A stretch of DNA of 64,000 bases from Planctomycetaceae bacterium (lineage in GTDB: Bacteria; Planctomycetota; Planctomycetia; Pirellulales; Pirellulaceae): assembly GCA_002724245.1 (NCBI GenBank), contig PBOG01000060.1:1-64000 (forward strand), read 5' to 3'. Positions 9,728 through 43,397 of the stretch are shown in pieces. How positions within the stretch are numbered: position 1 is the first letter of the stretch; every line of letters begins with the position of its first letter. The notes beneath the pieces are model-generated. The model worked only from the letters and a program-made list of their open reading frames with translations. It did not search any database and had not been told where the DNA came from. The position numbers and the translations under genes are program-made.

Positions 9728-9983
9728 TTCAATCGTACTAGTCGTAGCTCGATTCAGGCTGCCGCCGGTGCCAGAACCCCGCCCTTAAATCAATTACACC
9801 ACTCCACCTGCAGATTGAAACGGCTCGGAAACGCCACCGAACGCCGATCCGCTATGTCACCAGTTCAAAGTATGCAACGCCCGCACGCCAATCCGTCTGG
9901 CCGGGTTAACAAGCCGCCAGTAACGCATGCGGATTCCCCCGCTCTCAGTCTTGATCAGGGCGTTCCTTCTACACGATGTTGCC

Positions 9984-11906
9984 ATGACAACTGATCTTAT
10001 ACTCGGTACCGCAGGACACATCGACCACGGGAAAACCTCCCTGATCAATGCGTTGACCGGGATCGACACAGATCGTCTTCCAGAAGAAAAGCGGCGCGGA
10101 ATCACCATTGAACTGGGTTTTGCAGAAATGACCCTGGGAGATTTTCGCCTGGGAATCGTCGATGTCCCTGGCCACGAACGTTTTGTTCGTAACATGCTGG
10201 CGGGCGCAACCGGGATGGACCTGGCTATGCTGGTCGTCGCGGCGGACGATTCAATCAAACAGCAAACTCGAGAACATCTGGAAATCCTGCGGTTGTTGAA
10301 TCTCGCAGCGGGCGTCATCGCGATCACCAAATGTGATCTCGTGGAGCCAGACTGGCTAGAACTAGTCGAGGAGGAGATACAAGAACTCGTTGCCGGTAGT
10401 TTTCTCGCATCAGCCTCCATTGTTCGCACCAGCAGCTCCACCGGTACAGGATTGGACGACCTGCGGGAAGAAATCGTCACCGCGGCCCGTCGCGCAGCGG
10501 GGCTCGACAGGGTAAAGCACCTCGACACTCCGTTCCGCATGGCCATCGACAGGTGTTTCACCTTGGCCGGGCATGGAACTGTCGTTACCGGAAGTGCGGG
10601 CAGCGGCACTGTCGCGGTTGGAGATGAACTAGAACTCCAGCCTAGTGGAACGCGAGTGCGAGTACGCCGGCTCCACAATCATGACCGAGAAGCGGAAAAC
10701 GCGCACCGCGGACAGCGTGTTGCGATTAACCTCGCAGGTGCGCACCATGATGAAATACATCGCGGCCAGGAGCTTGCCGCGCGAGACTATTTAAAGGCCG
10801 GCAAACTGCTGACGGTGTGGCTGCTCTACCTCGACTCCTCGCGGCGCCCCCTCAAACACCGCTCACAAGTTCGTCTACACCTCGGCACGGCAGAAATCAT
10901 CGCGTCCCTGGTCCTCTTGGATCAGGAGTCGCTGGCACCAGGCGAGTCTTGTTTTGCCCAACTGTTTTTGCATGACACCGTCGCCACCACCTGGAACCAG
11001 CCCTTTGTGCTACGTAGTGAATCCCCCGCCATCACAATCGGCGGCGGACAGGTGCTGGTACCCTCCGCATTAAAACTCCGTGGCCTCGACGACGTGGAAC
11101 GTCAAATGCTGACAGCCTTGCGCTCGGACGATGCGTTGCAACGGGCATCAGCCGCCAGCTATTTCTCTGGCTTGCGTTCCGTAGAGCCACAAGATCTCGC
11201 GCGACTTGCAGGCGTTGAACATTTTGCCAATGTCCACCAACAACTGCTCGAAGCGGGCGAACTCCTGACCATTACGATTTCACCGACACGCACCGCGCAT
11301 TTACACCGCCAGGTCATCGAGTCACTTTGCCAGCGTTTCGAAGCGGCGCTCAGCAACCTCCACGAGCAGAATCCATTGCGAAGCTCGCTCGACCGCGCTC
11401 CGTTTGTGCGCGGCTTCGAGTACCTCGGTGAAAGTGCGATCATCGAAGCAGTCCTTAACTCCCTCCATCAATCTGGTCGTATTCGTTTGACAGCAAAGTC
11501 CATAGCGATGGTTGGCTGTGGCCCTAAGTTATCCCAGAACGAACGCAAGCTTCTGGCGACCCTGATCACCCAATACCGAGATGCTGGACTCGGAACACCC
11601 ACAGTCAAGGAAGCCCAGCAACGGGCAAAAAAGAATCAAGACTCCGTACCTCAACTGATCGCCTTGGCAGCGAACGACGGGGACCTGGTTGAAATCACCA
11701 GTGACTATTTCGTCCATACAGAGGTGCTCGACCAGGTCCAGCAAACACTGCGTGGCACAATCAGTCCCGTTGAGGGAGTTACAATGAGCCAAATACGAGA
11801 ATGCCTCTCTACGACCCGTAAATTTGCCATCCCGCTCTGTGAATATTTCGACCGCATCGGGTTCACTCGCCGAGATGGAGATATACGTTATCTCGTGGAT
11901 CCATAA
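9984..11906 (+). CDS. selB: Selenocysteine-specific elongation factor SelB
   Basis: SelB is the EF-Tu-like GTPase that brings Sec-tRNA to UGA codons by binding the SECIS hairpin. The start is taken at ATG 9984, giving the usual N-terminus TDLILGTAGHIDHGKTSL. Visible motifs are G1 GHIDHGKT (11-18), the switch RRGITIELGFA, G3 DVPGHERF and G4 TKCD. EF-Tu-like domains II and III follow. The last 200 residues hold winged-helix repeats that bind SECIS RNA (for example FEAALSNLHEQNPLRSSLDRAPF). At 640 residues it has full family length. selA follows after 151 bases on the same strand. Its presence means that the organism reads some UGA codons as selenocysteine, and one such gene lies at 42581-43189. 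Confidence 0.97.
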   Translation: MTTDLILGTAGHIDHGKTSLINALTGIDTDRLPEEKRRGITIELGFAEMTLGDFRLGIVDVPGHERFVRNMLAGATGMDLAMLVVAADDSIKQQTREHLEILRLLNLAAGVIAITKCDLVEPDWLELVEEEIQELVAGSFLASASIVRTSSSTGTGLDDLREEIVTAARRAAGLDRVKHLDTPFRMAIDRCFTLAGHGTVVTGSAGSGTVAVGDELELQPSGTRVRVRRLHNHDREAENAHRGQRVAINLAGAHHDEIHRGQELAARDYLKAGKLLTVWLLYLDSSRRPLKHRSQVRLHLGTAEIIASLVLLDQESLAPGESCFAQLFLHDTVATTWNQPFVLRSESPAITIGGGQVLVPSALKLRGLDDVERQMLTALRSDDALQRASAASYFSGLRSVEPQDLARLAGVEHFANVHQQLLEAGELLTITISPTRTAHLHRQVIESLCQRFEAALSNLHEQNPLRSSLDRAPFVRGFEYLGESAIIEAVLNSLHQSGRIRLTAKSIAMVGCGPKLSQNERKLLATLITQYRDAGLGTPTVKEAQQRAKKNQDSVPQLIALAANDGDLVEITSDYFVHTEVLDQVQQTLRGTISPVEGVTMSQIRECLSTTRKFAIPLCEYFDRIGFTRRDGDIRYLVDP

Positions 11907-12057: not shown

Positions 12058-13464
12058 GTGGAGTATGCGTCCGTGAAGTCCAAGCCTTTTCGTAATATCC
12101 CATCGGTGAACGAACTGCTGGAGAGTCCGCCTCTCCAGAACATGGTTGAGCGTGCCAATCGCAATGTCGTGGTCAATGGAGTACGAACGTTCCTTGACAA
12201 CCTGCGTCAGGAAATGCAGACCACTGCCGACCTGCCGATTCCGAACCCCGCCGAACTCGCCGAACGCATTGTTCATTGGATCCAGGAAGACGAAACGCCT
12301 TCATTACGGCCCGTTGTCAACGCCACAGGCATTTTGCTGCATACTGGCCTTGGCCGCGCACCCCTCGCCACCGAAGCGCTGCAAGCCGTGCACGACGTCT
12401 CGCGAGACTATGCAAGCCTTGAAGTCGACCTCGCGACCGGACAACGTTCCCAGCGTGTCACTGCGGTCGACAAACTTCTCAAACAACTCACCGGCGCCGA
12501 AGCCTCCGTCGTTGTCAACAACAACGCCGGAGCAACACTGTTGGCCCTGGCTGCATTAGCAGCTGGCAAGGAAGTTATTGTCGCCCGTGGTGAATTGGTA
12601 GAGATCGGAGGTAGCTTTCGACTTCCAGAAGTCATGGAACAAAGTGGGGCAGTGCTTCATGAGGTTGGCTCTACTAACAAGACACGGATCACGGATTACC
12701 AGAACGCCATAACAGAGCACACCGGTGCCTTGCTGAAAGTCCACCCCAGCAATTACGTTGTCACTGGATTTACCGAAGAAACCCATATCAACGATCTCAT
12801 CGCGTTAGGACGCAAACGCCACATACCAGTAATTCATGACATTGGATCGGGAGCACTTCTCGATTTTGCGCAATTTGGTGTCGAAGGCGAACCGTTGGCA
12901 ACGGAGAGTCTTCGTCAAGGTGCGGATGTTGTACTCTTTAGTGGAGACAAGTTACTGGGTGGCCCACAGTGTGGAATTATCTGCGGCTCCCAGATCTGGA
13001 TGAATCGAATCGCAACGCACCCCCTTATGCGTGCGTTGCGAGTCGACAAAATGACACTGGCGGCCTTAGCTGCAACTTTGCGTCTTTACCGCGACCCCAA
13101 AGAAGCAATCCACGCGATCCCCTTGCTGCGTCTGCTCAATACGCCCGTCGAGAACCTGCGGCAACGAGCGGAAAAGCTCAGTACACAACTCGCGACACTA
13201 CCAGCTTTTACTACCGCGACACCTGTAGACGATATCAGCTTCCTCGGCGGCGGCTCGTTGCCCAATCAGCAACTCGCTACCGTGTGCGTCGCTCTGGTTC
13301 CAGCGTCAGGAAGCGTGAATCAGACGGCTGCAGCGTTGCGGGCCGCCGACCCAGCAGTGTTCGGCCGCGTACACAACAATCAACTTCTGCTCGATCTCCG
13401 CACGGTGTCTCCCTCTGAAGACCAGAAACTCCTGGAAGCAGCGAGCCAACTTGCTTTGAGTTGA
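12058..13464 (+). CDS. selA: L-seryl-tRNA(Sec) selenium transferase SelA
   Basis: SelA converts Ser-tRNA(Sec) to Sec-tRNA(Sec) using selenophosphate, with PLP as cofactor. The 468-residue protein matches the family length. Motifs include IPSVNELLE near the N-terminus, RPVVNATGILLHTGLGRAPL (about 82-101), the gating segment SLEVDLATGQRSQR, and the PLP-lysine site FSGDKLLGGPQCG with the lysine at about residue 298. The start is GTG 12058 or the in-frame GTG 12073. The gene lies downstream of selB on the same strand, the usual bacterial selB/selA pairing. No selC (tRNA-Sec) or selD is visible in the window, so these must lie elsewhere. Confidence 0.97.
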   Translation: MEYASVKSKPFRNIPSVNELLESPPLQNMVERANRNVVVNGVRTFLDNLRQEMQTTADLPIPNPAELAERIVHWIQEDETPSLRPVVNATGILLHTGLGRAPLATEALQAVHDVSRDYASLEVDLATGQRSQRVTAVDKLLKQLTGAEASVVVNNNAGATLLALAALAAGKEVIVARGELVEIGGSFRLPEVMEQSGAVLHEVGSTNKTRITDYQNAITEHTGALLKVHPSNYVVTGFTEETHINDLIALGRKRHIPVIHDIGSGALLDFAQFGVEGEPLATESLRQGADVVLFSGDKLLGGPQCGIICGSQIWMNRIATHPLMRALRVDKMTLAALAATLRLYRDPKEAIHAIPLLRLLNTPVENLRQRAEKLSTQLATLPAFTTATPVDDISFLGGGSLPNQQLATVCVALVPASGSVNQTAAALRAADPAVFGRVHNNQLLLDLRTVSPSEDQKLLEAASQLALS

Positions 13465-41570: not shown

Positions 41571-42581
41571 TTACGAACCACAACTACCCTCTCCAGCCGG
41601 TGGATTTTGCCCTGCGGCAGCCAATTGTCGGCAAAGTGGCTCCGGTAAGGGTCCCGCCAGCAGGCTGCCCACGGCCTGCTGGACCTGCGACGGCGAGCTG
41701 AAACCAACGATAGCGGCCTGGATCTGCGGGTGGCGAAGCACATAACGCAGCCCTGCGTCGGCCAGCGACGCCCCTGAGTCCAGCAGCTCGGCGACTTGCG
41801 CCGCCCGCTCTGCATCACGCTGAAACAGGTCCAGCGGGAAAAATTTGGTTTTGAAAGTATGTGGCGCGGGGGGTTGCCCCACCATGGCGCCGCCCGCATA
41901 GACTCGAATCGCGAAGACTCCCATCCGCTGCGCTGCGCAGGCATCAATGACGTTGCCATAATCGGTTTCTGGGAAAGCCTCGGAAACCACACATCCCGCA
42001 CTGGGGTTGAGCACATTATAGGGCACCTGCATTGTCGCAAAACGCCCGCTGCCAATCACTTCGCGTAACGCGGCCGGCCCCCCGATTCCGGTCAAACCAA
42101 GGTGCTCTACGACGCCCCTGGAACGCAACCGGTCCAGCGTCTCCAGGACTCCGCCGGATCCGAGTACGTCCTGGGGGGTGAGGCTCGTCGGTTCATCACC
42201 GCGACCGACCGTGACCGAGTTATGCAGCTGCAGCAACGTCAACCGCTCAACCCGCAGACGCGTCAGGCTCCCCATCACGGAGGCCTCTATATTCCCCGAA
42301 ATATCTTCGAGGTCAGCGGGCATTAAACGCACCTTCGTCGCTAAATGCACCTTATCCACAGCCGCCAATTCCGCCAGCGTTGCGCCCAGGCTCTCTTCGG
42401 ACCTCCCCATTCCGTAAGTCGCAGCGGTGTCAAACCAATTGACCCCCAACTCGAGTGCCTGCTCAACGGTGGCACGCTGTAACTGCCTGGCATCCCCGGT
42501 CATCAACTGCGGAATTGGACCGGCGCCAAACGCGACGCGAGAAACCGTCAGGTCGGTGCTGCCCAAATTGGCATACTCCAT
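41571..42581 (-). CDS. Aldo/keto reductase coupled to a selenoprotein gene
   Basis: The start ATG 42581 overlaps the preceding stop (TGATG), and the resulting 336-residue protein begins MEYANLGSTDLTVSRVAFGAG, the normal AKR N-terminus. The catalytic tetrad is visible as Asp (NWFDTAATYG), Tyr (ATYGMGRSE), Lys (HLATKVRLM) and His (LLQLHNS). It is NAD(P)H-dependent and cytoplasmic. The substrate may be an aldehyde or ketone, possibly linked to detoxification together with the upstream AhpD-like selenoprotein. The longer frame from 42740 overlaps that gene and is rejected. Confidence 0.92.
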   Translation of the reverse strand: MEYANLGSTDLTVSRVAFGAGPIPQLMTGDARQLQRATVEQALELGVNWFDTAATYGMGRSEESLGATLAELAAVDKVHLATKVRLMPADLEDISGNIEASVMGSLTRLRVERLTLLQLHNSVTVGRGDEPTSLTPQDVLGSGGVLETLDRLRSRGVVEHLGLTGIGGPAALREVIGSGRFATMQVPYNVLNPSAGCVVSEAFPETDYGNVIDACAAQRMGVFAIRVYAGGAMVGQPPAPHTFKTKFFPLDLFQRDAERAAQVAELLDSGASLADAGLRYVLRHPQIQAAIVGFSSPSQVQQAVGSLLAGPLPEPLCRQLAAAGQNPPAGEGSCGS

Positions 42582-43189
42582 CAGCTCTGGCCCTTCTCCG
42601 CTGGCGGGGGCGGTGTTTTTCCGCGTGTGGCGTCTGTCAGGTAGCCAGGATCCTGCAATCCGAACGCATCTGCGACACGATTGAACCAGGCAAACATAGC
42701 CGTGACATAGACGGCTTCCGCAATCTGCGGGTCTTGCCATCCGACAGTCCGTAACTCCTCGGCATCAGCCGCCGTAATGCGGTACGACTCACGGGTCAGC
42801 CGGACCACAAACTCGAGCAATTTGCGTTCTGCCAGCTCCAGCCCCGCCTCCGCCACGTTACCGCGGCAGAGTGCTTCCACCTGACTTGCCTGGGCTCCCT
42901 GCAACTGCAGGAAATATCCATGCGACCCCGTTCAGTAGAGGCATCGGTTCAACCCGGAAACAAGTGTCGCAATCATCTCCTTCAGCCGACGTGTCAACTG
43001 ACCATCGGAAAACTGCAGGCCGTAGCTGAATTCCACCACCGATTTAAGCAAGTCCGGATTCAGGCTGAAGCACTTGAGAATTTCAGGCACCTCAGTCCGT
43101 TCCGGATTGGCACTTAACCAGGCCTGGTACACCTCCCCCACTGTGCCGGTAGCCTGATCCTCGTCGACCCAGCGAATCCAAGGCGGCAC
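42581..43189 (-). CDS. AhpD-like selenoprotein with in-frame UGA (CxxU)
   Basis: The frame from GTG 43189, with the strong ribosome site AAGGAG 7 bases upstream, runs 85 codons to a TGA (42932-42934) and then stays open to 42581 in the same frame. The joined 202-residue product is a carboxymuconolactone decarboxylase/AhpD-like peroxidase-related protein: KEMIATLVSGLNRC, LY, Sec86, TGSHGYFLQLQG. The TGA falls exactly on the second Cys of the family CxxCxxxH motif, giving C83-L-Y-U86-x3-H90. A SECIS-like hairpin follows the TGA. selA and selB are in this window. Thus the TGA is read as selenocysteine, and the gene is not a pseudogene. Likely role: thiol/selenol-based reduction of peroxides or related oxidants. 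It is translationally coupled to the aldo/keto reductase. Confidence 0.9.
42895..42914 (-). promoter_or_regulatory. SECIS-like hairpin after the UGA codon
   Basis: On the minus strand, bases +18 to +37 after the UGA form an 8-pair stem (UUUCCUGC / GCAGGGAG, including two G-U pairs) with a 4-base loop AGUU that contains a G. Distance from the UGA to the loop (about 25 bases), stem length and a G in the apical loop fit bacterial SECIS elements bound by SelB. The hairpin is inside the coding frame, as is normal in bacteria. Confidence 0.8.
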
Positions 43190-43397
43190 AAATCCACTCC
43201 TTGTGTTTGCACAGCATAAAACCCCGCCACGCAGCTCGGGTTGGCGGCCTCAACCTGGGGCAACCCGCGGCTCAGCCTGCCGCAAAAAGCGGAATACGTC
43301 AAGCTGGGAACCCGCGAGAGCGAACTACGAGCTGACGCCAGCCAGGTCGCCCGGACAGGAAGATCTGGACCAGTCCATCCCGGCAACACCGGGATAC

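Follow-up and report, generated by a model that had tools for sequence, protein, structure and literature searches.

Does the minus-strand gene at positions 42581..43189 of the window (the whole stretch of DNA that was analysed, 64,000 nt) encode a single protein in which an in-frame TGA is read as selenocysteine (Sec), or does this codon end a shorter or decayed reading frame? The coordinates are those of the first-pass annotation, to which the strand has to be added; the plus-strand reading of 42581-43189 gives a meaningless translation and was rejected. As had been foreseen for mechanical annotation, the gene appears in a plain ORF list as two entries, one of 85 aa and one of 107 aa.

Gene structure and family assignment

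The gene starts with GTG and has 202 codons. Translation of the minus strand from 43189 to 42584 with TGA as Sec yields 202 residues, and the stop codon is also TGA (42583-42581). The sole internal TGA is codon 86 (42934-42932, minus strand), so that the frame is open through a TGA at the second cysteine of the AhpD CxxC motif, as originally proposed. The local motif reads C83-L-Y-U86-T-G-S-H90 and the AhpD core is E71-x11-C83-x2-U86-x3-H90, formed by Glu71 (42977-42979), Cys83 (42941..42943), which is presumed to be the resolving residue, Sec86 and His90 (42920..42922), all on the minus strand. All four positions are invariant in an alignment of 17 orthologues. A ribosome site had also been noted, and indeed a Shine-Dalgarno sequence, AAGGAG (43197..43202, minus strand), is located 7 nt 5' of the GTG. 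Immediately downstream is an aldo/keto reductase gene (PF00248; 41571..42581, minus strand), whose ATG and the TGA stop of the selenogene overlap in the form TGATG. The suggested coupling of the two genes is thus borne out as far as the overlap is concerned, and translational coupling itself may be expected from it. The reductase adjoins the selenogene only in two congeners, and a PIG-L-type gene is likewise common to these genomes only. Since the neighbours are conserved within the genus only, gene context says little about the function of the selenogene here. In L101, a third reductase, 24% identical, is located elsewhere.

With Cys in place of Sec, the protein scores above the cut-offs of both TIGR01926, 'peroxidase-related enzyme' (111 bits versus 81.8), and the Pfam CMD family, PF02627 (47.7 bits versus 23). 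By contrast, its score against TIGR00777, which represents AhpD proper, is 13.8 bits, below the cut-off of 191.95, and the protein is therefore AhpD-like rather than AhpD. Nor is it a member of NF041238 (AhpD-related (seleno)protein, CFYUT), for which it reaches 61 against a cut-off of 175; NF041238 shares the CxxU motif and the AhpD core with the selenoprotein, but is a 357-position model. An AlphaFold2 model computed from the 17 orthologues (pLDDT 93, pTM 0.89) has its best PDB matches in 6k40 from D. radiodurans, 2pfx, 2prr and 2oyo, with TM values of 0.77-0.82. These four proteins resemble the selenoprotein in fold, length and the presence of CxxC at the aligned place, but have Cys instead of Sec and are only about 22-32% identical. 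In the alignments, the Cys of 2oyo, 2pfx and 6k40 is aligned with the Sec place.

Orthologues and the Sec-decoding machinery

Of 98 related genomes that were searched, 18 contain an orthologue whose identity is at least 51%. The codon corresponding to Sec86 is TGA in all 18; one orthologue (G003) is cut off by masked sequence. In a wider scan with one genome per species, the 80 best loci came from Planctomycetota and Acidobacteriota, along with a few MAGs that bear other labels. As MAGs are the source of most loci, individual contigs may carry a wrong organism name. The codon is TGA in 79 of these 80 orthologues and TGC in the remaining one, and for this reason the position of the TGA is far beyond chance. 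Furthermore, comparison of the region 3' of the TGA with that of the nearest congener (L010) gave dN of 0.05 and dS of 1.05, which shows strong purifying selection on this half of the gene. The two short ORFs are what would be expected if a TGA, genuine or arising from a sequencing error, truncated a decayed gene; however, the recurrence of this TGA in all but one of 80 independent orthologues, the purifying selection on the downstream half and the conservation of a hairpin within it (see below) make such a pseudogene exceedingly improbable. Indeed, homologues aligned through the site carry either Sec or Cys there, and frame shifts, decay after the TGA or loss of both residues, signs that would have spoken against a selenoprotein, were sought in them and not found.

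The search of related planctomycetes for Sec and Cys forms, proposed at the outset, revealed both. Cys occupies the Sec place in four orthologues (L040, L041, L042 and L092). Cys orthologues of three genomes that are 98 to 100% complete (G384, G351 and G426) have the motif CPYCMHSH, are single uninterrupted ORFs, and come from genomes that have neither SelB nor tRNA-Sec over cut-off. Moreover, the peptide FLQLQ, which is encoded by the hairpin in the Sec forms, is replaced in these three by FLHTH, FLHEQ and FLHSH. Cys together with a lost hairpin sequence in genomes lacking SelB and tRNA-Sec is what is predicted where Sec decoding is absent. The uninterrupted Cys orthologues also bear on whether the locus could encode two separate proteins, the second starting from TTG 42904 past the TGA. 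There is an ORF of 107 aa after the TGA, yet such a split would part the active-site redox residues from His90, and orthologues of Sec-lacking genomes are undivided; the chance that two proteins are made is accordingly minute. Although they belong to two planctomycete families, the Cys orthologues L040, L042 and L092 group in a single clade (support 100/100), and this suggests transfer between Sec-lacking lineages. In the tree, a distant outgroup is drawn by long branches into the window's own group, and due to this misplacement the tree gives no root for the Sec/Cys change.

The presence of selA and selB in the window was correctly recognized from the start. Both genes are on the plus strand: selB, for the selenocysteine-specific elongation factor (9927..11906), scores 367 bits against the TIGR00475 cut-off of 242, and selA, for L-seryl-tRNA(Sec) selenium transferase (12058..13464), scores 561 bits against the TIGR00474 cut-off of 268. 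ARAGORN detected no tRNA in the window, and the tRNA-Sec of this genome (70 bits) is on another contig. The genome also has selD (L157; G000:C89:28294-29220; 351 bits), which has an in-frame TGA of its own and thus probably encodes a selenoprotein itself. Among the 98 related genomes, SelB exceeds the cut-off in 55, including all 18 with the selenogene. One of the 18 (G016, 93% complete), in which SelB is present, has no tRNA-Sec over cut-off, perhaps because of an assembly gap. These data also bear on a genome-wide change of the code, or a general suppression, by which TGA would be read as Cys or Trp. Such a reading would agree with the Cys found at the TGA place in some orthologues. However, 21 of the 39 ORFs of the window, and the selenogene too, end in TGA, the genome has tRNA-Sec and SelB, whose occurrence follows that of the TGA form, and the hairpin sequence is lost along with the TGA, so that a changed code is very improbable.

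A second, distant group of TIGR01926-like selenoproteins, with CYYUTLSH and similar motifs, is present in the same order and widespread in the phylum (L027-L030, L032 and L033, as well as many phylum-wide matches). The genome G004 (99% complete) has a TGA-containing AhpD-like gene of this kind (L030) and a tRNA-Sec of 65.8 bits, with no SelB over cut-off, for which a gap or a divergent SelB may be responsible.

A candidate bSECIS hairpin in the coding sequence

For the bSECIS hairpin, which follows the UGA, a recent review gives the following limits: a loop of 3-9 nt with G in one of its first two positions, an upper stem of 4-16 bp, a distance of 16-37 nt from the UGA and an MFE of at most -7.5 kcal/mol (PMC13188914). 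A predicted hairpin at 42895..42914 (minus strand) falls within these limits. It is placed 25 nt after the TGA, has a stem of 5-8 bp and, in a 50-nt segment, a folding energy of -16.3 kcal/mol; its core, CCUGC-AGUU-GCAGG, is at 42911-42898, and the loop, AGUU, at 42906-42903 as folded, has G in second position. Compared with shuffled sequences, the folding energy is not unusual (z of -1.4, within an overall range from -2.4 to +0.65), and an Rfam gathering scan of the 64,000-nt window gave no match. As folding energy is not decisive, we relied on codon invariance and on changes in paired positions.

Codons 7 to 11 after the TGA, TTC CTG CAG TTG CAG, are each represented by one codon in 17/17 sequences, the single exception at the protein level being one Gln to Arg change, whereas conserved residues elsewhere in these sequences are typically encoded by more than one codon, the commonest having a share near 0.55. 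Given the codon usage of the family, the chance of such invariance is ~10^-25, a figure that assumes independence and therefore overstates the case. Every one of the 79 Sec loci has standard base pairs throughout the stem from 23-38 to 27-34, and one of these pairs varies between C-G, U-G and U-A. In L039 and L099, both sides of one stem pair are altered at synonymous positions (CTG to TTG and CAG to CAA); judged from the predicted pairing, these stem changes are compensatory. The closing pair 28-33 is retained in 45 of the 79 loci and is opened in the acidobacterial hairpin, which gives a larger loop, e.g. CGUGUU or CGGGUU. In L108 and its acidobacterial relatives, the stem is shorter and the element reads CCUG-CGUGUU-CAGG, ~21-34 nt past the TGA, compared with CCUGC-AGUU-GCAGG in planctomycetes. 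For most members of the second TIGR01926-like group, a GACUUC-GGUCU-GGAGUC hairpin is possible at the same place; MFE folding recovers it in L028 and not in L027.

Collectively, the orthologues, the hairpin with its compensatory changes, the purifying selection, the full Sec-decoding set and the restriction of close Cys orthologues to genomes missing SelB and tRNA-Sec argue for a Sec reading of codon 86, which, on sequence evidence, is very well supported. UGA codon 86 would be decoded as Sec by SelB and tRNA-Sec, directed by the putative bSECIS hairpin inside the coding sequence, 25 nt downstream of the UGA. We thus consider it highly probable that the gene is intact and encodes a selenoprotein of the AhpD/CMD superfamily, namely, a CxxU form of the 'peroxidase-related' subfamily TIGR01926.

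Selenoproteins of this kind have a history in surveys: an AhpD-like (COG2128) selenoprotein was first reported in 2005 (PMC1088965), AhpD-like 1 and 2 selenoproteins followed in 2008 (PMC2398784), and Table 1 of a 2026 review includes an 'AhpD-like protein, TIGR01926, CxxU' (PMC13188914). Selenoproteins have also been reported in planctomycetes (PMC4807772). The surveyed CxxU protein has the same subfamily, motif, bSECIS after the UGA and Cys homologues at the site; there is no difference of kind, and the protein described here is one more member. The first-pass annotation had placed the novelty in the gene and in its CxxU form in this lineage, while recognizing that AhpD-like selenoproteins were known from surveys. 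That holds for the gene itself. CxxU, present in surveys since 2005, is the standard form and not a new one, and the gene is widespread in the lineage. Indeed, predicted selenoproteins of this AhpD-like family are common in planctomycetes and acidobacteria; in the consulted passages of PMC13188914, PMC1088965 and PMC2398784, their spread in Planctomycetota is not discussed.

Putative catalysis and the deiodinase-like neighbours

In M. tuberculosis AhpD, Cys133 is the residue that attacks the peroxide. Glu118, Cys130, Cys133 and His137 of this enzyme are four of its five proton-relay residues (PMC3141380). The selenoprotein has the same catalytic spacing, E-x11-C-x2-C/U-x3-H, although the chain topology differs and sequence similarity is very low; because the spacing of the core is equal, Sec86 would stand at the place of Cys133. 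By analogy with this enzyme, the selenol of Sec86 may attack the hydroperoxide, Glu71 and His90 may relay protons, and Cys83 could then form a selenenyl-sulfide with Sec86, to be reduced by a cellular thiol donor. His132 of M. tuberculosis AhpD corresponds to Tyr85, and PA0269, which has the same His-to-Tyr change, showed weak H2O2-reducing activity only (PMC3141380), a point against this reading. The protein is nevertheless most likely a selenol/thiol peroxidase, and we lean towards reduction of organic hydroperoxides or H2O2, or passage of electrons to a partner, as its role.

It is also conceivable, if rather unlikely, that the selenoprotein is no peroxidase and serves instead as a disulfide/selenenylsulfide relay or as a reductive dehalogenase that partners a deiodinase-like protein. 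Structural matches of the AlphaFold2 model include the AhpD-fold debrominase Bmp8 (6ohi and 6ohj). Furthermore, the selenogene of Acidobacteriota and some Planctomycetota adjoins a deiodinase-like gene that in many cases contains Sec itself. A gene of this type with an in-frame TGA (FGSYTUPPF) is near the selenogene in 17 acidobacterial loci and immediately downstream in 16 of them (downstream loci: L108, L110, L111, L113, L115, L116, L118, L120-L122, L125 and L127-L131). In four planctomycete-type loci it is immediately upstream, with Sec in L073 and Cys in L084, L092 and L102; in L092 both the AhpD-like protein and its deiodinase-like partner have Cys. These neighbours are of the PF00837 type, with the motif FGSYTUPPF or FG[SN]FT[U/C]GPF, and lie on opposite sides of the selenogene in the two phyla. 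On the other hand, the nearest structure and sequence matches of the selenoprotein are peroxidase-related AhpD proteins, and both deiodinase-like genes of the window's genome, each with a TGA, are on other contigs (G000:C144:23918-24448, L156, reading FGSFTUGPF, and G000:C184:124-582). Moreover, the 2005 survey argues that thyroid hormone is probably not a substrate of the deiodinase-like proteins of bacteria (PMC1088965). A selenol/thiol peroxidase remains the preferred reading.

Linkage of AhpD-like and deiodinase-like genes thus occurs in two phyla. The surveys enter the two families as separate items, and the neighbours that they do describe are a Prx-like/AhpD-like pair (PMC2398784, PMC13188914); in the open-licence literature covered we found no report of the AhpD-like/deiodinase-like pair. 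We tentatively suggest that the two selenoproteins might constitute a paired redox (possibly dehalogenating) module in Acidobacteriota and Planctomycetota, one reducing or regenerating the other. A joint function, and its validity for this genome, in which the genes are apart, are conjecture.

In a mechanical annotation, this selenogene and its many orthologues, which span at least two phyla, would be split or discarded. The less documented feature is the deiodinase-like gene, often Sec-containing, beside the selenogene in relatives of two phyla, and the link to deiodinase-like selenoproteins is testable. Finally, the orthologue set represents a clean natural experiment, with Sec and the hairpin where SelB exists, and Cys without the hairpin where it is absent.
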